From: a virus
Length of the DNA: 64,000 bases
Virus record (IMG/VR): IMGVR_UViG_3300027896_000011
Coordinates: 1 to 64,000 of that record
Strand: one strand, 5' to 3'
In this document: positions 20,643 to 57,700 of the stretch, in pieces
Position numbering within the stretch: the stretch's first letter is position 1
Layout: each line of letters starts with the position of its first letter
Notes under the pieces: generated by a model
What the model was told of the DNA's origin: nothing
The model's database searches: none
What the model saw: the letters and a program-made list of their open reading frames with translations, nothing else
Made by a program: the position numbers and the translations under genes

Positions 20643-20660
20643 TAGCTATGATCAAAAAGA

Positions 20661-20686
20661 AAGGGGGACGGTTAGTCCCCCTTTTT
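20661..20686. terminator. Rho-independent terminator ending the replication operon
   Basis: Stem AAGGGGGAC / GTCCCCCTT with loop GGTTA. On the plus strand it is followed by TTTTT (82-86 of this block). On the minus strand the hairpin is followed by TTTCTTTTTGAT, a good U-rich run. It begins 2 bases after the frameshifted stop of the last leftward gene (20685), so its main job is likely to end the leftward replication operon. Confidence 0.8.
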
Positions 20687-21373
20687 AAATTGAATGTCTA
20701 CGAATTAATGAGATGATCTTCTCTTTAGTAGATACGTCGTCATCTGTTTGATAGATCACTAATCCATTTAACAGATTTTGTAACTCCTCTACATTTAAAG
20801 TATCAAGTTGCTGAGAAGGGATACACTGTGTTTCATTTGTAGTGGGAGCCCTAAGTCCATAAGTATTAGGGCTTATTCTTTTCCCGGTTCAAAATCATTA
20901 TTGGCTTTTGTGATTTCAGCGTCTACATCAGCTGGTTCAAGGTCAGTAGTACCAAGGAACATTTTAAGCATAGCCATGAGCACATAGACTTGTCGTTGAA
21001 CGTCAATAACTTCTGACTTTAGATTCTTTTCCAACTCATCTACTGCTAATCCAAGTTTATCGATACGAGTAATAACAGCATTCTCTTCTTTCTTGGAAGT
21101 TTTAGTAGGCTTTTCTGTAGGGGTTGGAGCTACCTCTTCAGATACCTCTTCCGTCTCTGGTTCAGGCTCTGGAACTGACTTCAAGCTAGTTGTCTTTTTA
21201 CCAGGTTTTGTCTCAGCTGCGCCACCTTGCTTGCTAAGAATGAATTCAATTAGGTCTTTGGATGCAGCATTTACTGCTTCTTTTGGGGTCATACCAAATT
21301 CGTCACTAACTGCTAATGTACGAATTTCAGATCTGCGTAGTCCTTCGAGTTCTTCACGTGTGTAATTAGCCAT
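20685..21373 (-). CDS. -1 frameshift fusion product (229 aa)
   Basis: Reading starts at ATG 21373, shifts back one base at GGGAAAA (20879-20885) and continues in the -1 frame to TAA at 20685-20687. This adds 64 residues to residues 1-165. The added part (from RISPNTYGLRAP through LNVEELQNLLNGLVIY to the end KEKIISLIRRHSI) has protein-like composition and resembles a short SAP/Rho-N-type helical domain. That frame has no ATG, GTG or TTG after its preceding stop, so a frameshift is the simplest way to translate it. The fusion would carry two SAP-like ends joined by an acidic, proline-rich linker and a coiled coil. Confidence 0.75.
20847..20885 (-). promoter_or_regulatory. Programmed -1 ribosomal frameshift signal
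   Basis: On the minus strand the zero-frame codons read CCG GGA AAA GAA TAA, which contains the heptamer G GGA AAA (20879-20885), of the same type as the lambda G/GT site GGGAAAG. Five bases downstream is a perfect 8-base stem, AGCCCTAA / TTAGGGCT (20866-20873 with 20847-20854), closing an 11-base loop. Slippery site, spacer and stem are all as expected for a -1 frameshift. Confidence 0.8.
20873..21373 (-). CDS. Zero-frame product with SAP-like start and coiled coil (166 aa)
   Basis: This is the product made without the frameshift. Residues 1-50 (YTREELEGLRRSEIRTLAV, then KEAVNAASKDLIEFIL) look like a SAP or Rho-N helix-loop-helix unit. Residues about 55-100 form a Pro/Glu/Lys-rich flexible linker, and residues about 102-150 a likely coiled coil (ITRIDKLGLAVDELEKNL). 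The end is acidic (DFEPGKE). SAP-like units often bind DNA or RNA. It is the last gene of the leftward replication operon. The ATG overlaps the next upstream gene by 8 bases. Function unknown; a tail-assembly-chaperone role is possible because such genes often use this frameshift, but the location is atypical. Confidence 0.7.
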   Translation of the reverse strand: MANYTREELEGLRRSEIRTLAVSDEFGMTPKEAVNAASKDLIEFILSKQGGAAETKPGKKTTSLKSVPEPEPETEEVSEEVAPTPTEKPTKTSKKEENAVITRIDKLGLAVDELEKNLKSEVIDVQRQVYVLMAMLKMFLGTTDLEPADVDAEITKANNDFEPGKE

Positions 21374-26216: not shown

Positions 26217-28429
26217 TTAACCTTTGGCTGTAGCCCAACTATAACCACTACCACCATCAACATTTAACGGAACGGAAAGATCAAAAGGAAGTGGATGTTC
26301 CATTTTATGTTTGATGATTGGTAGCGCCTCTTCTACGGATTCTTCAGGTACCTCGAAAATAAGTTCATCATGTATTTGGAGAAGCATTTGTACTCCCAGA
26401 TTTATTAAAGTTTGATCAAATTCACATGATATCATAGCTCTTCTAGCTACATCTGCTGCAGAACCTTGAATGCGTGAATTAACTGCTTGGCGTTCTGCTC
26501 TAGCTAATTCTCCACGTTCTCTACCAGTCATCGCACTACGGTACATTCCTCCAAGAGTTTCCATACCTGGAAATCTACGAGGACGGCTGGTAACAGTACG
26601 GACCATGTGTTGCTCACGTATCGCTCTATGAGTATCTTGTATAAATTGTCTAACTTTGGGGTATGGACGGAAATAGTCTTCAATTTTGACTTTAGCGTCA
26701 TTTACAGATATGCCGAGGCTGTGTGCAAGTTTATTTGGACCTTCACCATAGGTTAACGTACTAATCCCAAGTTTCCTTGGGTACTGACTATACCTTTGAA
26801 GAGCATTGGAGTTGAGTAGTTTCCAATTACGTAACATTTTGCTCTTCTTCCACCGTATCAACAAGAAAACGTGAATGACTACACTGCTTGATTGATCAAG
26901 CTTCTTGTTGAGGACATCCTCCGGTGTCCAAGTCGATACACTACCCTTATTGGGCAGCACGGGATTGCCTTGTGCAAATGCATTTAGGTTTCCCCGTTTT
27001 GAGTGGATTTTACTTCGGCTTAACACATCGGTCTACCGAAGCCGACTGTCTTGCTAGCTTGTCGGGCAAAACACATAGCTTTTTCAGTATCATTGAGTAT
27101 TGCTTCTGGGTTCTTTTTTTTCTTTAATGCCTTATTTAGCTCATCATAATCATACCCGTACATCATGCAGGCGGTACCTGCATGAATATCCCAACCACGG
27201 TTTATGACTCCTATCATGTTCTCGTCATTAGCCCCATGTGCCAGTAAGCGCATTTCTAGTTGGCTATAATCTAGTACGATAAACCGGTATCTGTGTTTAG
27301 GAATAAATGCTTCACGTAAGTGATATATATCGTTATCAGGACGAGGAATATTTTGAAGGTTAGGATCAGTGGAACTTAATCTTCCGGTAACCGTCACATG
27401 TTGTGTAAGTGTTGGATGTATTCTTCCATCTGGATCTGCACACTTAGAAAGACCTTCTACATACGTGCTTTTGATCTTATTAACTTTGCGTAGTTGTGAA
27501 ATCAATTTACATACTTCTACACCCTCTTCCGCATATATGTTTAATGTGCTTTCATCTGTAGAGGGTAACTGCCCTTTAGTCTTTTTGATTGGTTTAAGTT
27601 TGAGCTTATCAAAAAGTAGCCAACGAAGTTGGGCAGTACTTCGTAAGTTGATCTCTTTTCCTGCCACTTTATTAATCTTCCGTTCGAGACGAACAATTGC
27701 ATCGGACATCTGAGGTTTTAAGTCTTCTAGATACCCGGTATCGACCATAATACCTCTTCGGATCATATTGTAAAGCACCCGTGTAAAAGGCATCTCAACT
27801 TCTTGAAAGTAATCCCATAAAGAGATGTTATCTACCATCTCTTCCGCAGCTAGACGTTCTCTTAGTACATCTTTTACCTTGAATGTGGCGTAGGCGTCTA
27901 GTGAAGCGTAATTGATAGCAGCCCTGAAATCTTCTTTAAGTCCGCGAAGAATACGAGTTTCAGTGCTGTCATCTTTAAACTTCTTTGCAAAGGTATCTTT
28001 GAAACTGGCCATGTTCATGTTGCAGTAATCTAGAGCAGTTTCTTTTAAACCATGGCAGCCTTGTCTGTTCTCATCATGCAGCCAGTCCATTGCAAGAGTA
28101 CAGTATGCGTTACCGATGGGGGCGCGTACTCCTGAGTTAGCTAGCATACAGAAATCGAATGTCATATTAGTGAGCCACCAAATCATGTTTGGGTCTTGAG
28201 AAAGTTCGGCATCAAAGATGCGTAACATGTCTCTACTGAAGCAGTATCGTTTTTCCGGAGAAGGACAAGCAGACCAAACTACAATATGATCTTTCCAACG
28301 GTTAAGTCCTGTGGTTTCTGTATCTATTGCACACTCTCCAGTATCTTTAGCGTGCCTTATAAATTTCATCATCTCTTCCGGGGTGTCTACCCAAACTACT
28401 GGGGGTAGTGGTTGAAGAATTCCAGCCAA
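26217..28429 (-). CDS. polA: Family A DNA polymerase, split by a group I intron
   Basis: The exons are 28429-27035 and 26756-26217; joined, they give 644 residues. Exon 1 has a 3'-5' exonuclease start (AIDTETTGL, D36 and E38), then polymerase motif A (LDYSQLEMRLLAHG, D387) and the first half of motif B (RQASKTVGFG, R456, K460). Exon 2 begins LTYGEG, restoring the motif B pattern KTVGFG-LTYGEG, and has motif C HDELIF (H594, D595, E596). No 5' nuclease domain is present, typical of phage enzymes. Translation starts at TTG 28429, eight bases after AGGAGG. Without splicing, translation would stop after residue 469, losing motif C and the rest of motif B. Confidence 0.9.
26757..27034 (-). ncRNA. 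Group I intron in the DNA polymerase gene
   Basis: The 5' exon ends CTTCGGT, and the intron contains GCCGAAG (27013-27019), giving a perfect P1 helix with the required U-G pair at the splice site. The intron ends in G, and the first 3'-exon bases TTAA can pair with TTAA next to the guide (27020-27023), giving P10. Near the 3' end is a P9-like hairpin (CCCAAGG / CTTGGG) preceded by GGTATAGTC. A core-like AAGGCAATCCCGTGC and long stems (CAACAAGAA / TTCTTGTTG; GAAGAGCA / TGCTCTTC) are present. At 278 bases it is compact and has no endonuclease gene. The P3-P7 pseudoknot was not fully assigned by eye. Confidence 0.87.
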
Positions 28430-43450: not shown

Positions 43451-44292
43451 AGCACATTACTGAATTACATTTGGCTGGTATGCTAAGCGAGCTAAAAAAA
43501 GAAGCTGGTGTTGCATCAGATATTGCTTCACGTGGTCTTCAAATGCTTCGCAAGGTACCTACGTTACCACTTGTGAGTAGGATTCCTGGTATAAATTCTA
43601 GAGTAGGACAGACCCTTGCTGGCGGTGCATTAGGTGGTGCTATCGGTGCTGCTACTGGTGAAGAGGGCGATAGACTTCATAGAGGTGTAATGGGTGGGTT
43701 GTTAGGAGCAAGTGCTGTAGGTCTTGGGCACATGGCTACACAGAGTGGTAGAGATGCTGCAAAGAAATCTATGGGGAATTTATGGCAGAGGTCTAAATAC
43801 CAATTTACTGGTAAAGGTCTAGAAGGTACGCCGGAAGCTAGGATATTAAAGGCCAGAGAGATTGGTCTTATTCCTGAAGCAGGTAAAAATAAAGCTGTAG
43901 ATGCTGCACAAGAACATGCATTGAAAAATGATTGGTTATCATTACCTGGTGCGGTACATGGTCTAGTTACTCAACCCGGACAAGTATTAAAGAATTCTTG
44001 GAATAGAATGGATACAATGGGTAAAGGGCTTACTGCTGCAGGTGGAGCGATTACTGCCGCAGATATGATACAAAAGCCAACTCCAGAAGGTCCCGGTAGA
44101 TTAGAAAAGGGATTGGGTGGATTAGCTTCAACTATAGGCTTTACTGCAGGACCTGCAGGTATCTTACCGGGCATGTTGATGGGTAGTTGGGCAGGTAAGG
44201 CAGGACAAAGGGTTGGACGTGTGGGGGATAGATTGTTAGGGTACAACCCTGCAGCTGAGGCAGCGCCTATGTATGAAGGGGCTGTACAATGA
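43447..44292 (+). CDS. Glycine-zipper virion protein next to the portal
   Basis: A 281-residue product; ATG 43447 is inside the ATGA overlap with the previous gene. An upstream in-frame start at 43390 lies within that gene and is not used. It has GGALGGAIGAATG and GGLLGASAVGLG, then GKGLTAAGGAITAADM and GFTAGPAGILPGMLMGSWAG: four Gly/Ala segments that could form membrane helices or a pore. A basic linker lies between (MGNLWQRSKYQFTGKG). Proteins with this architecture in phage head operons may be injected with the genome. It overlaps the portal gene by 4 bases. Confidence 0.55.
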   Translation: MKHITELHLAGMLSELKKEAGVASDIASRGLQMLRKVPTLPLVSRIPGINSRVGQTLAGGALGGAIGAATGEEGDRLHRGVMGGLLGASAVGLGHMATQSGRDAAKKSMGNLWQRSKYQFTGKGLEGTPEARILKAREIGLIPEAGKNKAVDAAQEHALKNDWLSLPGAVHGLVTQPGQVLKNSWNRMDTMGKGLTAAGGAITAADMIQKPTPEGPGRLEKGLGGLASTIGFTAGPAGILPGMLMGSWAGKAGQRVGRVGDRLLGYNPAAEAAPMYEGAVQ

Positions 44293-47200
44293 GTGTAGGT
44301 TTAGGCGGCGCAGATTCCTCTGCACTTCGTTTCTCTAGAACTCGAGGTCGTACTGGAGCTTCTTCTGATTACGGGCTACAGTACCCTAGTCCTTTTTTTG
44401 ATATCGGGCAAACGTATTTACCCGCCACTATTAAACAGATGTTTAGGTGGTGTCGGTATTACTTCTTAGTTAATCCATTGATCAATGCAGTGGTAGCTAA
44501 GATGGCGGATTATCCTGTTACTGATATTATTCTAGATACTGACAAGCCGGATTTAAAAGAAAAGTGGTATCACTTTTTAGATTCACAGCTTAGGTATCGT
44601 CCTTTTCAGATTGAACTAGGACTTGACTTTTATGCCTATGGTAATGCTTTAGTTAGTATCTTTTATCCGTTTATAAAGATGCTTAGGTGTAAACGTTGTG
44701 GGCATGAGAAACCTGCAGCGGATGCTACATATCGATTTCAGAATTTTGAATTCCACTGGGAGTGTTCTAAGTGTAGCCATGCTGATATTGCTACTGTAAG
44801 AGACCATTACGTTAAGGCACCTAAAGGTATACGTCTTTTACGTTGGAACCCGGAAGATATAGATATCAGATATAATGATATTACTGGGGATACGGAATAC
44901 TATTATACGATTCCGGTACAGATCAAAAATGATATTATTATGGGGAAGAAGTCTACTGTAGAGACTATGCCTCAGCTCTTTATCGATGCTTTAAGGCTAA
45001 GAAAAGCCGTAGTGTTTTCTCGAGACAACATCTATCACTTCAAGCGGCCTACATTGGCCGGAAAAGATAGAGGTTGGGGTACTCCTTTAATACTGCCAGT
45101 ACTTAAGGATACCTACTACCTCCAGGTCCTGCGAAAAGCTCAGGAATGTCTTACACTTAGCTCTCTTTTAGAGAGGCCATTTGATCTTTGTAAAGCAAGC
45201 GAGATTAGGATTGGAGACCTAGTAAAGACGCATACAGGAGCGTATAAACGGGTAACAGATATTCGTCCTAAGCTCATAAACGAACAAAACGGTGGTTTTA
45301 CGGTACAAGTAGCTACTAAGGCTATGAAAGCTTTTCCGACCGGTTATTCTGACAATCATCCTCTCTATGTATTGCGGAGAGAAGAATTGGCCACTGGGTG
45401 TAGGGCGAATAAGCACATCAATACTAAGTATGTTCGGCGTTATACAGACGAGTATGCGCCTAAATGGGTAAATGCTGGAGATGTCAAACTTGGTGAGTAC
45501 GTAGTTTATCCTATAGATAGGCTAAAGAACACATCCGGGGAGGTATTGGATATATCACAGTATACTGGATTGCCAGCAACAACAGACTGGGTATATCAGC
45601 AATCATCTAAAGAAACAGTAGATGCGTACGAGGCTCTTGAGCAGGGAGACGAACTTCCGTGGGCTGATAACGCCCAACATGCAGCGCATACCCTTCATAA
45701 TAGGGGAAAGACGCCTCCACGGGTAAAGAGGTATATCTCATTAGACGAAGATCTTGCTTACTTATCCGGGTGGTTCATCGGAGACGGCAGTACAGGTGAC
45801 CGACAAATAAGCATAGCTCTAGGGCTTAAGGACGATTATAAGCTTCTTGCTAAGGCATTTAAAAAGGTATTTGGTAAGGAGCCTAAAATCTCTAAGAGTA
45901 AGAGATTTAATGGTCGTTTACTTGTTCACAGTGATGTGATTGCGACTAAATTTATGCGTGGTTGGATACCTGGTGATGCACACACTAAGAGCCTGCCAAA
46001 AGAAATTCAGCAAGCTCCAGACCAAATATTATTGTCTTTCCTACGAGGATATGTTGAGGCAGATGGGTGCTTTCATAACGACCTTGATCGAGTAACATTT
46101 ACTTCGGTAAGTCCTCAGCTTGCTTATCAAGTATGGAAGCTTCTTATTTCTCTTCGATGTGTGGCTAGGGTATCCAAGAGAAAAGAATCGCAATCAATTA
46201 TTGAGGATAAGCTTGGACGTAGAAACAAGGCTATAAGTGGTGTCTCTTATGATATAGTCTTAGATGGGTCATCTGGACGTAGATTACGTGCGCTTTTGTA
46301 TGGTGGAGAAGTTGAAGACGCAGCCGGAGGGCATACAGGATTTTTTCACGGGGATTATTTTGCCTCTCCTATTTGTAATTGGGAACGCCTAACAGAACAG
46401 CACGTATTGAGTTTTGAAGTAGAAGATGATCATACTTTTTGCACTCCAGGAATGGTGACGCATAACAGCATCGCGCTCGAGCACATTGTGCCGCTACGCG
46501 TCTTATTCCCACAAGCCGGGTCGGCCTCCTCGGACCCATACTGCGTTGCGTTAGATAGCCTTGTAGAGACTCGAGAAGGAATATTTCCTGCTGGGGAAGT
46601 CAAGAAGGGTGACTGGCTAAAGACACATACAGGTGCGTGGAAGCCTGTTGAGGCCGCCGTAGATCGTAAAATTCGTACTGGTGAGAAGGTATACGAATTT
46701 TCTATTGCTTCTCTTAGTGCCTTTCCATTTAAGGTATCTGAGGAGCACCCAATACTCGCTGTAAAGCGGCCCTCAAGATTTAGAGGCTATGAGAGCCTTA
46801 CCGAAGAACCGGACTATATTGAGGCCAAGAATATTGACGAGGGGGACTTTGTTTGTTACCCCAAGCATAGAACCGTTTGGGATAGTCTTGACCTAGATCT
46901 TCACGAGTACTGTCCTGAGCGTGCATTCACTGCTGAGTATATGTACCGTAGGTTAGATCAACAGTCTGCGGACATCTATGAGTACTTTGAGGCTAATGGT
47001 GTGCCTAGCTTTGCTCATGGAGAACGTAAGACCTTCTTGGCCGACAAAGGTTGGACCGAAGATTACTACAATAATGCTAAGGCGGTGTTTAGCCAGCAGG
47101 AAGCTGTTGATAGGATTCCTAGGTATCTGCCAGTTACAAAAGACCTGGCGTACGTAGTAGGTATGTATGCGGCTGAAGGTAGTCAGAAGGATTTAGGTAT

Positions 47201-50200
47201 TTCTTTTAGTCTTAATGCGGCTGAAGATTCCATCATGGGCGCTTTGGACTCTGCGCTACAAGGGATGGGGTTTGCTAGTGGGCACAGATACATACGAGAT
47301 AACTCCGCGCAGTACGATGTTGGTGATGTATTTTTGGGCAGCTTACTGCCTCAGCTGTGTGGCAAAGGTGCCCAAAATAAACGATTACCAAGGTTTATTG
47401 TTGAGGCTCCAGAAGAGATTGCGCTTCGTGCAGTAGAGGCAGTGTTTCTAGGTGATGGTTGTTCAATAAATAGTAAAACTCGTAGAGAAGGATTAAAGAC
47501 TGTCAGCCCTCAGTTAACTATAGACGTGCGTGCCATACTACTTTCTTTTGGTCTAATAGCTAATGTACAAAAGAGTATTCCTGGGGAGCACGAGATAGCT
47601 AAACTTCCGTACTACCAAGTCAATTTAAACGGATCACAGGGAGACGCCTTCGCTAACCTGTGTAGTAGCGGAACGCGTACACACAAAGGATTCAGTAGGT
47701 GTGGGTTTGTTCGTGGTGATTATGTCTATCTGCGGGTAAGTAAAAAATCAGAATCTCCAGATGTCAAAGTAGTACGTGGCTTCCAAATCAAAGGAGATAA
47801 GTCCTTCTGTATTGTTGGCGTAGCTACGCACAATACGAGCGTGAATCTTCAAGATTGGCACGATCAGATCGCAGGAGAATTACGTCGTTGGAGAAGCGAT
47901 AATTCGTATATTCCTATTCTTCCGTTACCTATTGGACAACAGACCATAGGTGGTGATGGTAGAGCTCTGCTTCTTTCACAAGAAATACGAGTATGGAGCG
48001 AACATATTATTGCGGGTATGGGTGTCCCAACGGAGCTCATTTTTGGTGGTCTCTCGTATTGTCAAGCTCCTGATACTCTCTTGTTTACGTCTCACGGTCT
48101 CGAGACATTAGAAGAGCTGACCCCAGCTGAAGAGGGGCAAGGGACATCAAATCGCAAAGTAGTAAGCCATATGGGCGTGAGAGACGTTGTTAGAACGCAT
48201 CACGTAGGTCTTAAAAAGGCAGCGTCGGCAAAAACTAGGCTTGGTCTGGAACTTACTGGAGCGTATACGCACCCCGTGTATGTACTACAGCCAGATTTAA
48301 CTATGGCATTTAAAACTATGGAGGAATTGAAGCCAGGAGATAGAGTGGCTGTAAAAGCGGGAGCTAACCTTTGGCCTAAGGACACACCTAAAATTGACTT
48401 TCATACGACAAAATCTGGAGACCGGTTTGAGGACGTTACTATCCCACAGGAGTTAACTCCAGAATTAGCCAGACTTTTGGGATATTTAATAGCAGAAGGT
48501 TCTTGTACTGAGGCGCGTAGAATTGGCTTTGGAAATTCTGATCAAGAAGTAAATACTGACTTTGCAGATTGCGTAGAGGCTGTGTTTGGATACCGTCCAA
48601 AGTTCCATCTAAATCTAAGTATGCCTGTAACCACCAAACCATTTTATCAGACTGAGATATCAAGGCAGCAGGCAACTGAGTTTCTCTACGCATTAGGTAT
48701 CGGTGGTTATGCTGCTGAAAAAACGGTACCTAGAATTATACGTCTTGCTCCTAAGCATCTTGTAGCAGAGTTTTTACGAGCTTATTTTGAAGGAGATGGC
48801 GGGTCAGAGGACGTAGAAGACAAACAAGCAGTTACCGCCTGTTCAATGTCGGGTAGACTCCTTCAAGAAATACAGCTATTGATGCTGAATATGGGTATTG
48901 TTACTTCTAGGTATTTCCCAAGAGTTAAGTCAACGTTCACACTACAAGCCAGGTCAGAGTATGTAGATATTTTTGCAAAAGAGATTGGGTTTATTTCCAG
49001 CTGTAAAAAAAGAATACTTTCACAGAGAACCCCTACTAGAGGATCTTCTTGTCTATCATCTCAAATTCCATATCTAAAAGAGAGATTAGAGGAGTTTAGA
49101 GATCGTCATTTTGAGAATAGGTCTTCGTGGAAGTTTGAATCTGTAAACGTTGAGTTGCTGCAGGAACAGTATACTGTTGATGAGATTGCAGTACTTACAA
49201 ACAGGGAACGCTCTACTATATTGCTGCACATTAATTCTGGAGCACTTACAGCGGTAAAGCAGCCATCTGTACAAGGTAGATTTGCTGCATATACTGTCAG
49301 TCGTCAAAATTTAGAATATTTTCTTAAACATCATGGTTTAGGTAGACGTAGAACAACACCAAAGAGTTTCTGGGGCATGAGCTATGAGAAGCTAGCTACT
49401 AAAGATCTTTCTTTTATTAAAGAAAAAGAGCCTGATTTTGCTCGGCGTATAGAAAATTTAGCTGAGATGCGTTTAATCTGGGATGAGGTACAGGAAGTAA
49501 ATCTTTTGGATATAGAAATTCCTATGCGTGATTTGACGGTGGATGAGGCTTCTACGTACCAAGGTAACGGTGTAATTAGCCATAATTCCGGATCAAATGT
49601 ATCTTTACGTATGCTTGAGAATATGTTCCTTGGTTATCTTTCCGATCAATTAGCTTTACTTCGTTGGATAATCGAAAAGACTGCCTCATACCTTGGTTGG
49701 GCTAAAGTAGGAGCTAGGTTCAAGCCATTTAAGATGGCAGATGATCTGCAGAGAAAGGCATATCTATTCCAGCTTAATCAAGCCGGAAAGATATCAGATG
49801 AGTCTCTTTGCTCTGATGCTGATTATGATTCATCTAAAGAAGATGCGATCATGGAGAACGAAGCTACTCGTCGCATAGGAGCGATGAAGAAGCAACGATT
49901 GCTTCAAGCAGAGATGGAAGGCGAAGCAGCTATGGTCCAGCAGAAGTGGCAGACCAAAGCACAGAATAAAGCTATGTCAGAACAAATGGCTATTCAAGGA
50001 GAAGCGGCTAAAGATCAAATGGCATTCCAATCTCAGATGCAAAATGGAATGATGCAAGATCAAATGGCTGTTCAAACAGGACAAGAAGCGCCACCTAAAA
50101 CTCCAGATATGATGCCTGCTCCTCGAGACCCATCGTTGTTATCTGTACCTAAGGGGATTACCTCTCCATTAACACTACAAAGTGTTCAACAGCATCCAGT

Positions 50201-50471
50201 TTCTGCGTCTAATGCAGATATAGCTGGTGGGCAAAATGTAGACCTGTTGTTTATGGCTAGAAAATTAGCTGATAAGTTTTCTAGACTTAACCCCGGAGAG
50301 AAACCAGTAATGTTAAGTAGGCTTAAAGAACTTAATCCTATACTGTATTCTACGGTTACAGGGCTAATGATGAGCGGAGGGAATGGACCCACCGCTGCAG
50401 CTCAAGCCTCTGCGAGGCCGTTGCCATTGCAACGAACACCCCGCAGAGGATCTGAAGCTGCTCAAATCTAG
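44289..50471 (+). CDS. Portal protein precursor with three inteins
   Basis: A 2060-residue precursor; the three inteins (1380 residues) leave a 680-residue mature portal. The extein sequences join well: RKAQE-SIALEHIVPLRVL, SSDPY-TSVNLQDWHDQI and FGGLSY-SGSNVSLRMLENM. The pattern MGVPTELIFGGLSYSGSN with its long following helices fits the portal family. A zinc-type insert (CKRCGHE ... ECSKCSH, about 134-162) lies near the front. The C-terminal part is Gln/Met-rich and helical (MSEQMAIQGEAAKDQMAFQS). The portal is the dodecameric DNA gate of the capsid; splicing is needed before assembly. GTACAATG has no strong ribosome site, so translation is probably coupled to the preceding gene. Confidence 0.88.
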   Translation: MSVGLGGADSSALRFSRTRGRTGASSDYGLQYPSPFFDIGQTYLPATIKQMFRWCRYYFLVNPLINAVVAKMADYPVTDIILDTDKPDLKEKWYHFLDSQLRYRPFQIELGLDFYAYGNALVSIFYPFIKMLRCKRCGHEKPAADATYRFQNFEFHWECSKCSHADIATVRDHYVKAPKGIRLLRWNPEDIDIRYNDITGDTEYYYTIPVQIKNDIIMGKKSTVETMPQLFIDALRLRKAVVFSRDNIYHFKRPTLAGKDRGWGTPLILPVLKDTYYLQVLRKAQECLTLSSLLERPFDLCKASEIRIGDLVKTHTGAYKRVTDIRPKLINEQNGGFTVQVATKAMKAFPTGYSDNHPLYVLRREELATGCRANKHINTKYVRRYTDEYAPKWVNAGDVKLGEYVVYPIDRLKNTSGEVLDISQYTGLPATTDWVYQQSSKETVDAYEALEQGDELPWADNAQHAAHTLHNRGKTPPRVKRYISLDEDLAYLSGWFIGDGSTGDRQISIALGLKDDYKLLAKAFKKVFGKEPKISKSKRFNGRLLVHSDVIATKFMRGWIPGDAHTKSLPKEIQQAPDQILLSFLRGYVEADGCFHNDLDRVTFTSVSPQLAYQVWKLLISLRCVARVSKRKESQSIIEDKLGRRNKAISGVSYDIVLDGSSGRRLRALLYGGEVEDAAGGHTGFFHGDYFASPICNWERLTEQHVLSFEVEDDHTFCTPGMVTHNSIALEHIVPLRVLFPQAGSASSDPYCVALDSLVETREGIFPAGEVKKGDWLKTHTGAWKPVEAAVDRKIRTGEKVYEFSIASLSAFPFKVSEEHPILAVKRPSRFRGYESLTEEPDYIEAKNIDEGDFVCYPKHRTVWDSLDLDLHEYCPERAFTAEYMYRRLDQQSADIYEYFEANGVPSFAHGERKTFLADKGWTEDYYNNAKAVFSQQEAVDRIPRYLPVTKDLAYVVGMYAAEGSQKDLGISFSLNAAEDSIMGALDSALQGMGFASGHRYIRDNSAQYDVGDVFLGSLLPQLCGKGAQNKRLPRFIVEAPEEIALRAVEAVFLGDGCSINSKTRREGLKTVSPQLTIDVRAILLSFGLIANVQKSIPGEHEIAKLPYYQVNLNGSQGDAFANLCSSGTRTHKGFSRCGFVRGDYVYLRVSKKSESPDVKVVRGFQIKGDKSFCIVGVATHNTSVNLQDWHDQIAGELRRWRSDNSYIPILPLPIGQQTIGGDGRALLLSQEIRVWSEHIIAGMGVPTELIFGGLSYCQAPDTLLFTSHGLETLEELTPAEEGQGTSNRKVVSHMGVRDVVRTHHVGLKKAASAKTRLGLELTGAYTHPVYVLQPDLTMAFKTMEELKPGDRVAVKAGANLWPKDTPKIDFHTTKSGDRFEDVTIPQELTPELARLLGYLIAEGSCTEARRIGFGNSDQEVNTDFADCVEAVFGYRPKFHLNLSMPVTTKPFYQTEISRQQATEFLYALGIGGYAAEKTVPRIIRLAPKHLVAEFLRAYFEGDGGSEDVEDKQAVTACSMSGRLLQEIQLLMLNMGIVTSRYFPRVKSTFTLQARSEYVDIFAKEIGFISSCKKRILSQRTPTRGSSCLSSQIPYLKERLEEFRDRHFENRSSWKFESVNVELLQEQYTVDEIAVLTNRERSTILLHINSGALTAVKQPSVQGRFAAYTVSRQNLEYFLKHHGLGRRRTTPKSFWGMSYEKLATKDLSFIKEKEPDFARRIENLAEMRLIWDEVQEVNLLDIEIPMRDLTVDEASTYQGNGVISHNSGSNVSLRMLENMFLGYLSDQLALLRWIIEKTASYLGWAKVGARFKPFKMADDLQRKAYLFQLNQAGKISDESLCSDADYDSSKEDAIMENEATRRIGAMKKQRLLQAEMEGEAAMVQQKWQTKAQNKAMSEQMAIQGEAAKDQMAFQSQMQNGMMQDQMAVQTGQEAPPKTPDMMPAPRDPSLLSVPKGITSPLTLQSVQQHPVSASNADIAGGQNVDLLFMARKLADKFSRLNPGEKPVMLSRLKELNPILYSTVTGLMMSGGNGPTAAAQASARPLPLQRTPRRGSEAAQI
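45147..46466 (+). mobile_element. Portal intein 1 (440 aa, LAGLIDADG type)
   Basis: Residues 287-726 of the precursor. It begins CLTLSSLLERPFDLCKASEI, has block B-like GYSDNHPLYVL, and ends DHTFCTPGMVTHN before Ser. LAGLIDADG motifs: LSGWFIGDGSTGD and FLRGYVEADGCFHN. Complete and apparently intact. Confidence 0.9.
46542..47834 (+). mobile_element. Portal intein 2 (431 aa, LAGLIDADG type)
   Basis: Residues 752-1182. It begins CVALDSLVETREGIFP, has block B-like VSEEHPILAV, and ends KSFCIVGVATHN before Thr. LAGLIDADG motifs: VVGMYAAEGSQKD and VEAVFLGDGCSIN. It sits only 25 extein residues after intein 1. Confidence 0.9.
48060..49586 (+). mobile_element. Portal intein 3 (509 aa, LAGLIDADG plus HTH)
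   Basis: Residues 1258-1766. It begins CQAPDTLLFTSHGLETLEEL, has block B-like TGAYTHPVYVL, and ends TYQGNGVISHN before Ser. LAGLIDADG motifs: LLGYLIAEGSCTE and LRAYFEGDGGSED. A helix-turn-helix-like segment (QYTVDEIAVLTNRERSTILL) lies after them and may help DNA targeting; it is absent from the other two portal inteins. Confidence 0.88.
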
Positions 50472-51718: not shown

Positions 51719-54700
51719 TTGGCACGCATTGCACCGGAAGAGGGGTTTGAACTCCTCAAAGACCGAGTACAAAAAGCAGTCAGTGGATTCTTCCCCATAA
51801 TCGGGCGGAAGAATACGCTAGAGCTCCATGATATATCGGTTAAAGATAACCTGAATATCGATGATATTAGGTCCCAGAAACACGCTAAGTTGAGTGGTCG
51901 TTCCTGGACTGTACCAGTAGAGGCAACTATTGCCCTAAAGGACAATACTACTGGGTCGATAATCGATAAACAGAAGATGAACTTGCTTAACCTGCCTAAG
52001 GTTACAAGACGCTATGGCCATATCGTAGATGGCCAGGAGTATCAGATAGATAACCAGTGGCGCTTAAAGCCCGGTATCTATAACATGGTTAAACAAGACG
52101 GAGCTATTGAGTCTCACTTTAATGCGGCAGGAGGCTTTAAGATACATTTTGATCCAAAGTCTCGTCAATTTACATTGAACTATGGTAATTCTAATATGCC
52201 TCTTAGACCCTTCTTACACGCCATGGGGGTGTCTGAAGAGGAAGTAGAAAATCGTTGGGGTAAAGATATCGCTACGGTTAATCATGCTGATAGTTCTAAA
52301 GAACTTATTAAGTTTTATAGAGCATCCACTGGGGATAAGACCGTTAAGCCCACTATAGATGAGGCAAAGTCTCATTTGTGGGATGTAATGCAAAAGACGG
52401 TACTACGTCCGGAAGTAACTAAATTTACTCTAGGTAAAGAATATACAAACGTTACTGGGCATACGCTTTTAGATGCGTCAGATAAATTATTGAAGATATC
52501 TAGAGGCGAAGCGCAGCCAGACCCTAGAGACGCTTTGATGTTTAAAGATCTCCATTCAATTGAAGATTTTGCAGCAGAACGTCTTATTAAAGGTTCTAGA
52601 GAAATTCTTCGTAAAGTAAATAATAATATTGATCGTAAAGATAAAGTACGAGACATCATAGCTCCAGAAATATTTAATCGTCCGATCAAACAGATGTTTG
52701 GAAAGAATTCCTTAGCAATTGTTACTGATCAGACTAACCCGTTAGAGATGTTCTCCGCTAATATGAAGACCACCATTATGGGAGATGGTGGTATTAAATC
52801 AGAGCATACTGTTTCAGATGAGGCGAAACTTATAGATCCGTCTCATTTAGGATTTCTTGATCCAATACACACTCCCGAAGGATGTTACGATTCTGAGACA
52901 GAGGTCTACACAAAGACTGGCTGGAAGAAGTGGATAACCGTAACAGAGCAAGATCAATTAGCTTGTCGAGTAGACGGTAGATTAGAGTTTCACCTCCCTA
53001 CAAATCTGATCAATGCCCCATATAAGGGGAAAATGTATGGGGTAAATACCGCACGAAACAAGCAGCGTAGAAAGAGAGAAATTGATTATTTAGTAACGCC
53101 CAATCATAGAATCTACTGTCGTACTAGAGACCTCAGGGGAAAGGCCCTATTTCGTATAGAGACCGCAGACGTGGTGCACGGTAAAGCTAGAGACTTAGAA
53201 CTTGGGCATGACCCGTATCTAGGTTCCAAAGAAACGGGCGTATTTCATTTGCCTTACGTAAAGGGAAACAACTCTTCAAAGAACGTAGACGAGATCAACA
53301 TAGGTGACTGGGCTCAATTTATAGGGTGGTTCCTGTCTGAGGGGAATTGCACGTATGATGATGTAGGTTCCCACTATAGTGTCTGTATTTCACAGAGTAT
53401 AGTTACGTCTAGAACTAACTGCGAAATTATTGAGGCGCTGCTCGATAGGTTACCCTTTGCTTGGAGTTTTTCTGAAAGAGAAGATGGTAAACGCACCTAT
53501 CGGGTAAGTACAAAGCAGCTAGCGCATTATGTCTCTCAGTTTGGACTTAGTTACAATAAGTCCATACCAGAGTACTTTTTCGAATGTTCTGTGGAAACAC
53601 GAGAATATTTATTAGAAGCACTGCTGTTGGGGGATGGCAGGAAAAACTCACATAGGGCTACTGGCGCATCTTATAAACAGCTAGTATACTGCACAGTTAG
53701 TCCACAACTCGCTCTAGATGTGGAGCGCTTAGCAATAAGCTTGGGGCGTCCCGTATCTATGTGCCGGTATGCAGATGACCGAGAAGAGCGATATAGAGAC
53801 GTTTATGAGGTACGTTTACTGTGTCAAACAAAACGAGAAATTCAAGGCGCTAAAGGACACTTTTATACCTCTGAGTACGACGGCACTATTCACTGTGCAA
53901 CTGTTCCAGGAGGGCTACTGTACGTACGCAGGGGAACGGGGTTAGCACACTGGAGCGGTAATAGCGCCACAGGTATCACACTGCGTTTACCTTTAGGTGT
54001 ACATAAAATAGGGCATGATGTTGCTATTAAAATGTACAATACAAAAACTGGAAAAGTTGAAAACGTCAATCCTACTGTCGCTTATAAATCTCATATAGCT
54101 CTGCCAGATCAAATTACTTGGGAGGGCAATAAACCTAAAGCTGCTGGTAAAGTTGTAAAAATTAGTGGGCCGGGTAATGAAATATATGATGGTACGTTAA
54201 AAGATGCTGATTATGTAATGAAGAGTCCGATGCAGATGTTTTCCATCTCATCTAACATGATTCCTTTCATGCCGTCAGATCACCCTAATCGTAGTACCAT
54301 GGCCGGAAGACAGATGGAACAGGCTATCTCTCTAAAACATAGAGAAATCCCCTTAGTACAAAGCTTGGCCGGTAAAGAAAGTTTTGATCGTATACTTGGA
54401 AGCTTTGCCAGTCATAGCGCAACTGTTAGTGGTACAGTATCAAAGATAAAACCAGACGCTATAGTAATTAAGAGACCTAACGGTACTAAGGAAGAAGTGT
54501 TCATTTATGATCACTTTCCACTTAATGAAAATAAAGCGTTTATGCATGCAGAGCCTTTAGTAAAGGTCGGAGATAAAGTAACTAAAGGGCAAGTTATAGC
54601 TGATACAAATTACACTAAAGATGGCGTATTAGCTATAGGTACTAATTTACGTACAGGGTTTATGCCTTATAAAGGATATAACTTTGACGATGGTATTGTA

Positions 54701-57700
54701 GTCAGTGAGAGTGCAGCTCAAAAATTAACCAGTGAACATCTTCATAGACATTCATTAGAACGAGATGTATCTCACATTTTGGATAAGAAGAAATTTACGG
54801 CTTATATGCCTACTGTACTGAATAAAACTCAGTACGATAAATTAGATGAAGAAGGCGTAATCAAACCAGGCACTGTCGTAATGCCGGGAGATACTCTAAT
54901 AGCAGCATTACGTGCTTCAAATAATCCGGAACGTAAAGAAGATTTAGAACTTTCAAAGTTACATAAGTCTATTGTTAAACCATATAAAGACTCGAGTATT
55001 AAGTGGGAAAGCGATTACCCAGGAGTAGTTAAAGAAGTAGTTAAGATTGGTAAGAATGTTTCTGTACACGTAAAAACTGAAGAAGCCTTAGACATCGGAG
55101 ATAAGCTCTGTTACGACGAAAAGCACGAACTATTGACTACTCGTGGATGGGTTCCGGTAAAGGACGTAAAGGTATCTGATGAGGTGTGTTCACTCAACCC
55201 GGAGACTGACGCGATAGAGTACCTGTGCCCGGAGAAGACAGTCAGCTATGATTGTGTAGAGGATGATCTGTACGTCTTGGAGACTACACAAGTGTCTATG
55301 GCTGTCACCATGGAGCACAAAACATATGCAAAGCCTAGGGGAGCGGATAGGCACAGCCTAATTCCAGTCTCTCAGTTAGTAGGTAAGCGTTATCATTTAA
55401 AGCAGCACGGTAAATGGGTGGGGGAAGACAGAGAGACATTTGAGTTCCCCTCTATGGTAGTCAAGGCTGGGCAGAGTGGTAATGGTACCAGAGTGCTGCC
55501 ATCAATACAGATGCCGATGGACACATTCTTAATGCTTCTAGGAATGTACTTGTCGGAGGGCAACAATTATGGTGGTAACGGCGACTACTACATAGAAATC
55601 ACTCAAATAAAGCAACCAGGAAGAGCTCAGACAGAGGAGGCTCTGGCATTAGCAGGAATACGTTTTACGCGTACTCCTGAAAAGATACGCATACACGGTA
55701 AGCAGCTGTATGAGTATTTCGTGCAGTTTGGGCATGCGGTAAATAAATTTATTCCTGATTGGATTTTTCAGCTTCCGAAAAAACGGTTACAGGTTCTGTA
55801 TAAATGGTTAATGTGGGGGGATGGCTGTGAAAAAGGAACCACACACGTATACACCACTATATCCCCTCAGCTAGCCGATGATGTACAGCGTTTAGTTTTC
55901 CATCTTGGTAAGGCAGGCAGAGTGGTGTGGGAGCCTGGTTATCGTGGCCAGATAGAGGGCAGGTATTACGATTTTAAGCCTAGATATAGAGTTAGGGTAA
56001 TACGCACTAAATTAGAGCCCACAATAAATCACGGGCACTCTAATTCACAAGGCGGACAAAAAGAAACTATAGAGAAGTACACCGGTAAGGTGTACTGCGT
56101 GGCTCTTCCACGTAATCACGTACTCTACACACGTCGAAATGGTAAATGCCACTGGTCTGGTAATACGGCGCGCCACGGCAATAAAGGCATAGTGACACGG
56201 ATCATACCTGATCATGACATGCCCCATACTAAAGATGGTAAGCATTTAGAGGTGTTGTTAAACCCGTTAAGTGTTATGGGTAGAACTAACTTAGGTCAAG
56301 TATTAGAGGTTGCTGCAGCCAAAGTGGCGGAGAAGACTGGTAAACCTTATATGGTTAAGAACTTTTCTCCGAATACAGATTTACATGCCCAAGTCACTGC
56401 TGACTTAGCCAAGCACGGTTTGACGGATAAAGAAGAAGTTATAGACCCCGTTACAAATAGAGTAATGGGTAATGTGCTTGTAGGACCTATGCACATTTTT
56501 AAGCTCCACCATCAGGTGGAAAAGAAGCTTAGTGCTCGAGCAGGTGGTTATGGGTATGACTACGATAAAGATATGATTCCTAAAGGTGGTGGCCCACGAG
56601 GAGCCAAGTCTCTCGGAACACTAGGCCTTTATTCTATGCTGGCGCATGGAGCGACATCTAATCTGCGGGAAATGCAGACTTATAAAAGCGATGCGTCACA
56701 AGGTGATCAATTCTGGTCTGCTCTCCAAGCTGGAGAGATGCTTCCTACTCCTAAGCCGACCTTTGCTTACAATAAATTTCTTGGGTACATCAGAGGACTT
56801 GGTGTAAATGTTCAGAAAACAGGTAATAACCTTACGCTTATGCCTATGACTGACAAGCAGATCATAGAACAAAGCAATGGTGAGATTACCGACCCCGCTA
56901 AGTCAGTCACAGCTAAAAATATGAAGCCTGAAATAGGGGGATTATTTGATCCTAAAGTTACAGGTGGTATTGATGGTACAAAATGGGGCTTTTACACACT
57001 CCCAGAATCTATGCCTAACCCCGTATTCGAAAGTGCTATTACTCGTTTGTTGGGAATGAAGCAAAAAGAGTTTGCAGGCTTAATTGGTGGTACGTTAGCA
57101 GTAGACCCAAAAACCGGAAAGATAGGAGATTCTCAAAAAATTGAGGGAGGGCTGGTTGGTGGTAAAGCCTTTGCTCATATGCTTAGTAAAATAGATGTGA
57201 AAAAGGATTTAGCTGCTGCCAAAGTAGCGCTAGATAAACCGACATTAAGAGGGACGTATCTTGATCATGCTAATAGTAAAGTAAAACTACTAGAGGCTTT
57301 AAACAAGGTTGGTATGACGCCAGTAGAAGCGTACATGTCTAAAGTCATTCCTATATTACCGCCATCTATGCGACCTGTTCCAGTGTTGCCTAATGGTACT
57401 ATTAGTGAAGAAGATTTGAACGGTCTTTATAAGAATCTTCATTTGTCTGCGTCTAGATACGCGAAGATGTCTCCATTGATTCCAGAAGATGATCAATCTA
57501 AAGTAGAGATTCGACAAGAAGTCTATGATGGTTTACGAGCAATAGCTGGACTTGGTGGTTACCCACATCAAATTCGTAGAGGAATCTTAGACTACATACA
57601 TGGTAAGAAGATGGACACTCGTACGGATGCTAAGATAGGTTCTCCTAAAGAAGGATTCTTTCAAGATAAATTGGTTGAACGTAAGCAAGATATGTCTATG

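Follow-up and report, generated by a model that had tools for sequence, protein, structure and literature searches.

The replication operon and its last gene

The stretch of DNA analysed here (hereafter the window) comprises 64,000 nucleotides and forms part of a virus record of 168 kb. Its minus strand carries a replication operon encoding a DnaB-like helicase, a primase, DNA polymerase I, HU and a RecA/UvsX-like recombinase, together with a Holliday-junction resolvase, a Cas4-type exonuclease and RusA; tail and baseplate-type genes lie on the opposite strand and converge on it. The final gene of the operon encodes a protein of 166 aa, and its ATG overlaps the stop of a 78-aa gene upstream, a coupling by overlap that is also used by the neighbouring genes. 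The features of this gene and its 3' end are the following:

20873..21373, minus strand: 0-frame gene, 166 aa; homologous genes occupy this position in 16 loci
21215..21364, minus strand: N-terminal Rho-N/SAP-like helical domain, residues 4-53 (AlphaFold2 pLDDT about 80-86)
20951..21097, minus strand: long helix, residues 93-141, a probable coiled coil or oligomerisation element (AlphaFold2 model)
20879..20885, minus strand: slip site G GGA AAA, phased for tandem -1 slippage
20847..20873, minus strand: hairpin with a perfect 8-bp stem, putative stimulator (-11.0 kcal/mol)
20685..20879, minus strand: -1 frame extension, 64 aa plus stop (protein-level conservation; pN/pS below 1 in the -1 frame)
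20688..20822, minus strand: predicted C-terminal Rho-N/SAP-like domain, frameshift-only (model and profile matches)
20654..20684, minus strand: intrinsic operon terminator, immediately 3' of the -1-frame stop

Read on the minus strand, the gene ends with ...TTT GAA CCG GGA AAA GAA TAA, the heptamer lying 10 nt ahead of the point where the 0-frame sense codons end. A spacer of 5 nt (GAATA) separates it from the stem, whose arms AGCCCTAA (20873-20866) and TTAGGGCT (20854-20847) pair around a loop of 11, and the 0-frame stop TAA (20875-20873) shares the first stem base. The hairpin energy corresponds to a z of -2.7, with 0.6% of dinucleotide shuffles equally stable. These elements, namely the in-phase G GGA AAA, the 5-nt gap and the perfect 8-bp stem at 20847-20885, had been proposed as a -1 frameshift signal in an earlier reading of the sequence without database searches (the sequence-only reading), and all of them proved correct. 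The probability, calculated from the protein and the local codon usage, that any canonical heptamer falls within the last 8 codons is 0.05 for the window alone. No Rfam family reached its gathering score near the site, and the sub-threshold matches there were judged to be chance.

After a slip, the -1 frame would be translated as RISPNTYGLRAPTTNETQCIPSQQLDTLNVEELQNLLNGLVIYQTDDDVSTKEKIISLIRRHSI and stop at TAA 20687-20685, giving a predicted fusion product of 229 aa, so that the 64-codon open frame and the product length given by the sequence-only reading hold. In the window, no more than 3 nt of open -1 frame precede the heptamer; the shift must therefore occur at the heptamer, the sole useful site. 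The terminator stem (20684-20660) starts at the base right after the -1-frame stop. It had been noted that the extension ends before the operon terminator, which is correct, but the stop directly abuts the terminator rather than lying two bases from it.

Neither the 166-aa gene nor the window RecA had a DNA or protein match among cultured phages, the RecA of locus L029 giving a single cultured-phage match (27%), and the GTDB genomes searched yielded no match. The 166-aa protein falls into no family of Pfam, PHROGs or NCBIfam. The phages carrying this gene form a little-known uncultured lineage.

Three further features of the window were recorded. The DNA polymerase I gene (26217-28429, minus strand) is interrupted by about 250 nt within a conserved motif (...ASKTVGFG / LTYGEGPNKLA...), a site at which L016 and L017 are continuous and L022 seems interrupted likewise; the insert motifs CAATCCCGTGCT and GGTATAGTC suggest a small group I intron, but Rfam gave no match for the insert even at E 10. 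On the plus strand, a single ORF of 2768 aa (51719-60025) contains Rpb2 domains 3 and 6 and Rpb1 domains 1, 2, 3 and 5, and is a phage-encoded, fused beta/beta-prime RNA polymerase of the multisubunit type. A plus-strand ORF of 2060 aa (44289-50471) with LAGLIDADG and intein-splicing domains and weak terminase/helicase-type matches is probably an intein-containing structural or packaging gene.

Conservation of the slip site and of the extension

Direct searches identified two relatives, with best-segment identities of 67% and 57%; in each of them a G GGA AAA in the right phase precedes the stop by 1-4 nt, and the -1 extension is homologous. Further loci were collected by using the upstream recombinase gene as an anchor, down to about 36% recombinase identity, and the comparison set consisted of 16 non-redundant loci with the whole gene, window included. 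Gene order around the 166-aa gene is identical in the relatives.

The arrangement of a slip site followed by a -1 extension is present in 15 of these 16 complete loci. Sorting by heptamer revealed that (i) 12 loci have a canonical in-phase GGGAAA[A/C/G], in the form GGGAAAA in the window, L016, L017, L019 and L043, GGGAAAC in L022 (and its near-identical L029), L026, L030, L040, L045 and L048, and GGGAAAG in L025 only, (ii) 3 loci have weaker, non-canonical variants, GGGTTCC in L020 and L021 and GGGGGAA in L035, on which P-site re-pairing would be possible and the A site would need a G-U-type mismatch at codon position 2, and (iii) one locus, L049 (11608-12500), has lost the arrangement, its homologue ending at the 0-frame stop with the terminator directly behind and no extension. 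L049 is a natural loss, so that not all phages of the lineage need the long form. The heptamer types lie scattered within one clade of the recombinase tree, the pattern that would result from an ancestral shift whose exact site drifts. L016 and L017 are richer in GC, and of the 18 and 17 lysine codons of their genes, respectively, the one in the slip site alone is AAA.

The extension is homologous in all 15 loci having one. In the window, L043, L035 and L016 the -1 frame opens just 0-9 nt upstream of the heptamer, and this late opening pins the shift site. In almost all of the other relatives the terminator coincides with the -1-frame stop or follows it closely, rather than following the 0-frame stop. 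When searched across 2.9 million viral contigs, the extension was found only as this extension and never as a separate gene, and extension-only searches added no family members. Relatives without the heptamer, or with stops in the -1 frame, would have spoken against the sequence-only reading, which withstood this comparison with one loss (L049) and three members whose slip sites are non-canonical.

At two much more distant loci (RecA about 27%), L055 (12574-13889) and L052 (5926-7424), an ORF in the -1 frame, with a similar C-terminal domain, lies behind a proline-rich gene 3' of RecA, and in L055 a 12-bp hairpin follows the stop. No convincing slip site could be recognized in either, and both were left out of the counts.

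Hairpins and selection on the -1 frame

Stems of at least 6 bp, starting 5-9 nt behind the heptamer and differing in sequence, are found in most members, for instance GCGACGAG/CTCGTCGC in L022, GCCTAGTT/AACTAGGC in L025 and GCCGGGC/GCCCGGC in L020; the hairpin is weak, doubtful or absent in L016, L019, L040 and L043. The hairpin energies of 15 sequences, which are related and so not independent, combine to a z of about -5, and in 9/15 the energy is in the lowest tenth of same-locus gene-end controls. Conservation of heptamer and stem had been suggested as a check, and its outcome is a canonical heptamer in 12/16 loci together with a hairpin in most relatives whose sequences are unlike one another.

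The -1 frame of the extension contains 0 stops, and each other frame contains several. In the close pairs L026/L030 and L020/L021, pN/pS is 0.22 in the -1 frame, whereas the remaining frames of these stretches give 0.58-2.74. More distant pairs are near saturation and give 0.50-0.68 in the -1 frame, with changes concentrated at third positions; overall, the other two frames mostly reach 1 or more. For two distant window pairs the 0-frame ratios (0.58 and 0.70) are similar to those of the -1 frame, so that the close pairs carry the selection test. Judged from these substitution patterns, the extension is under purifying selection in the -1 frame. At the level of sequence, comparison of the loci thus shows a conserved site, a conserved extension, selection on that extension and a terminator positioned behind it.

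Two ends with a similar predicted fold

An AlphaFold2 model built on the family alignment predicts a four-helix N-terminal domain, a disordered acidic linker (51-91) and a 49-residue helix; the extension, modelled alone, forms three helices (mean pLDDT 68). The Rho N-terminal domain was the leading consistent structural match at both ends, with Z 7.7 and rmsd 2.1 over 46 residues for the N-terminal domain and Z 5.2 and rmsd 1.3 over 41 for the extension, values (Z 5-8) at which chance matches also occur. SAP-type domains (including SAP domain 2do1 for the N-terminal domain), FAN1 and T4 endonuclease VII appear among the lower-ranked structural matches. At the level of profiles, the extension shows weak sequence matches to two Rho proteins (E 0.07 and 0.6), and the N- and C-terminal domains match each other with a probability of 91.8. 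The Rho_N and SAP models matched neither end in any of the 15 members, and no other Pfam model scored for either domain. The two SAP-like ends that the sequence-only reading had described are therefore supported by the models as a Rho N-terminal/SAP-type fold, not as membership of a family, and the protein probably binds nucleic acid.

Proposed mechanism and alternative explanations

We favour, with a probability of about 0.82, a programmed -1 frameshift that would set the ratio of one-ended to two-ended subunits and most likely thereby control bridging. As the ribosome finishes the 166-aa gene, the tRNA pair on G GGA AAA would re-pair from GGA-AAA to GGG-AAA, with the help of the hairpin that starts five bases further on. 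Some of the ribosomes, presumably a minority, would then continue for 64 codons and yield the 229-aa protein, and those that do not shift would terminate one codon past the heptamer and yield the 166-aa protein. Both products would contain the N-terminal Rho-N/SAP-like domain, the acidic linker and the long helix, through which they probably oligomerise, and only the 229-aa form would carry the second Rho-N/SAP-like domain. Mixed oligomers would differ in the number of nucleic-acid strands held, and the ratio fixed by the frameshift would most likely govern the bridging strength of the oligomer in phage replication, recombination or transcription. The comparison of loci supports the frameshift well; that slippage occurs, and its rate, as well as oligomerisation, nucleic-acid binding and bridging, are what we infer. 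Transcriptional slippage is unlikely, the run being just three or four A.

The main functional rival accepts the frameshift and has the protein act on transcription, as a Rho-like decoy or antitermination factor, perhaps with the fused RNA polymerase. The leading matches of both ends to the Rho N-terminal domain and the presence of a fused beta-beta' RNA polymerase in the genome speak for such a role; the fold, however, is common to many DNA-binding SAP-type domains (SAP, FAN1, T4 endonuclease VII), and the gene is located among replication and recombination genes. We regard this alternative as unlikely, though worth keeping in mind.

Considerably less probable still is coupled reinitiation close to the 0-frame stop, which would make the -1 ORF a small gene in its own right. 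That stop does lie near the start of the ORF, and genes of the same operon are coupled by overlap. However, the window has no ATG, GTG or TTG before the domain, and the sole start-like codon of its extension is a GTG at codon 41, within the domain and without a Shine-Dalgarno sequence, in agreement with the sequence-only reading that the frame has no start of its own. In the relatives, whose extensions have no conserved start codon or Shine-Dalgarno sequence, start-like codons occur at unrelated positions, mostly within the domain. Reinitiation would moreover leave the conserved in-phase heptamer and the hairpin unexplained. Gene callers would overlook an extension of this kind, which lacks a start codon.

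A relocated tail assembly chaperone of the lambda G/GT type, residing inside the replication operon, would share the slip-site class, a similar extension length and the production of a short and a long form. Against this, the gene stands at the 3' end of a helicase/primase/polymerase/RecA/nuclease/HU operon and not beside a tape measure; it does not lie between a major tail protein and a tape measure and is on the strand opposite the tail and baseplate genes. Both of its ends resemble Rho-N/SAP. Known chaperones are very divergent, and the lack of any match above noise for the 166-aa protein (PHROGs, Pfam, NCBIfam) speaks neither for nor against this identity. Nor is it the only chaperone-like frameshift gene of the genome. 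A genome scan detected a 351-aa gene (genome 142615-143670; L059:18615-19670, plus strand) that ends with A AAA AAC TCT TAG and is extended in the -1 frame by at least 112 residues. This gene lies about 122 kb from the 166-aa gene, on the strand of the structural genes, with a tape-measure-like ORF of 1207 aa about 11 kb downstream, and it is also present in four relatives, the genome of L035 having A AAA AAT there; no family model matched it. By resemblance, the 351-aa gene is likely a tail assembly chaperone. The doubt already voiced in the sequence-only reading, that the frameshift gene of the replication operon may not be a tail chaperone, is thus strengthened by the operon, by the Rho-N/SAP-like ends and by this other candidate; the gene is probably not a tail chaperone, an identity to which we give very little credence. 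In these phages, -1 frameshifting seems to serve two unrelated genes.

A single gene with a canonical heptamer near its stop is not rare (P 0.008-0.2 for every one of the 11 canonical loci besides the window, which, being related, are not independent), and the genome scan shows other accidental in-phase sites. One of these, a GGGAAAA in phase within the neighbouring gene of 123 aa (minus strand, 21982-21602), we rejected as a slip site: it is unconserved, and the gene downstream has its own start. That the heptamer and the open frame coincide by chance, or that one gene was split by an assembly error, nevertheless has a negligible probability, since the sharing of the arrangement by 15 loci from different metagenomes excludes an assembly error, and selection in the -1 frame, hairpins of unlike sequence and the 123-aa gene, a natural control whose heptamer is not kept in the relatives, stand against chance.

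Returning to the programmed frameshift, we propose a wider picture, as a tentative one that falls short of even odds: these genes may form a family of replication/recombination factors in which a frameshift-dosed second binding domain tunes a DNA/RNA-bridging scaffold, the same phages possibly using a second, independent -1 frameshift for tail assembly.

Comparison with known systems

Frameshifting to -1 via G GGA AAN is already known: G_GGA_AAG is a highly shift-prone site in E. coli, and the G-T genes of archaeal viruses employ G_GGA_AAC and G_GGA_AAG (PMC5009743). Among phages, tail chaperones and capsid proteins are the best-known cases of programmed frameshifting. In a survey of phage frameshifts (PRFect data), tail chaperones account for nearly all annotated cases (2397, beside 79 hypothetical ones; PMC10885494). 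A limited literature search found no conserved frameshift in a phage replication operon that adds a second domain of the N-terminal type. As a non-tail case in a replication operon, the gene described here would extend the control of subunit ratios by frameshifting to genome processing, and it offers a natural series of slip sites at one homologous position (GGGAAAA, GGGAAAC, GGGAAAG, GGGTTCC and GGGGGAA), accompanied by unlike hairpins.

The assignment of the site to the lambda G/GT type, made from the window alone, stands for the G GGA AAN class, a slip site with its extension being found in 15/16 loci. As in lambda G/GT (Xu, Hendrix and Duda; reviewed in PMC5009743), a G GGA AAN -1 slip near the end of a small gene would add a C-terminal domain to a fraction of the product, and the slip site drifts among related heptamers while the shift is kept. 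In contrast to lambda G/GT, the phage gene lies in a replication operon and not in the tail module, its ends are Rho-N/SAP-like, the extension resembles the protein's own N-terminal domain, a hairpin is present in most members, and a separate chaperone-like frameshift gene exists. In IS3-type OrfA/OrfAB (PMC5009743), too, the short product binds nucleic acid, as is predicted here, and the shifted product gains a second domain; the domain added in the phage protein, however, is a second one of the binding type and not a catalytic one, and the gene is not part of a mobile element. Frameshifts extending capsid proteins (T3/T7 gene 10; phage A2; PMC5009743) likewise place a C-terminal domain on a minority of subunits, but they concern structural genes and Ig-like or other surface domains.

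The Rho N-terminal and SAP-type helix-extended-helix domains resemble both ends of the phage protein in fold and in weak sequence similarity; unlike Rho, the phage protein has neither OB-fold nor ATPase, and it would carry two copies of the domain per chain, flanking a long helix. In dnaX, a -1 frameshift in a replication gene sets the ratio of two subunits, tau and gamma. The gene described here resembles dnaX in that a -1 shift in a replication gene would determine a subunit ratio in an assembly. The shift gives the short form (gamma) in dnaX and would give the long form here, and the proteins are unrelated, that of the phage being without AAA+.
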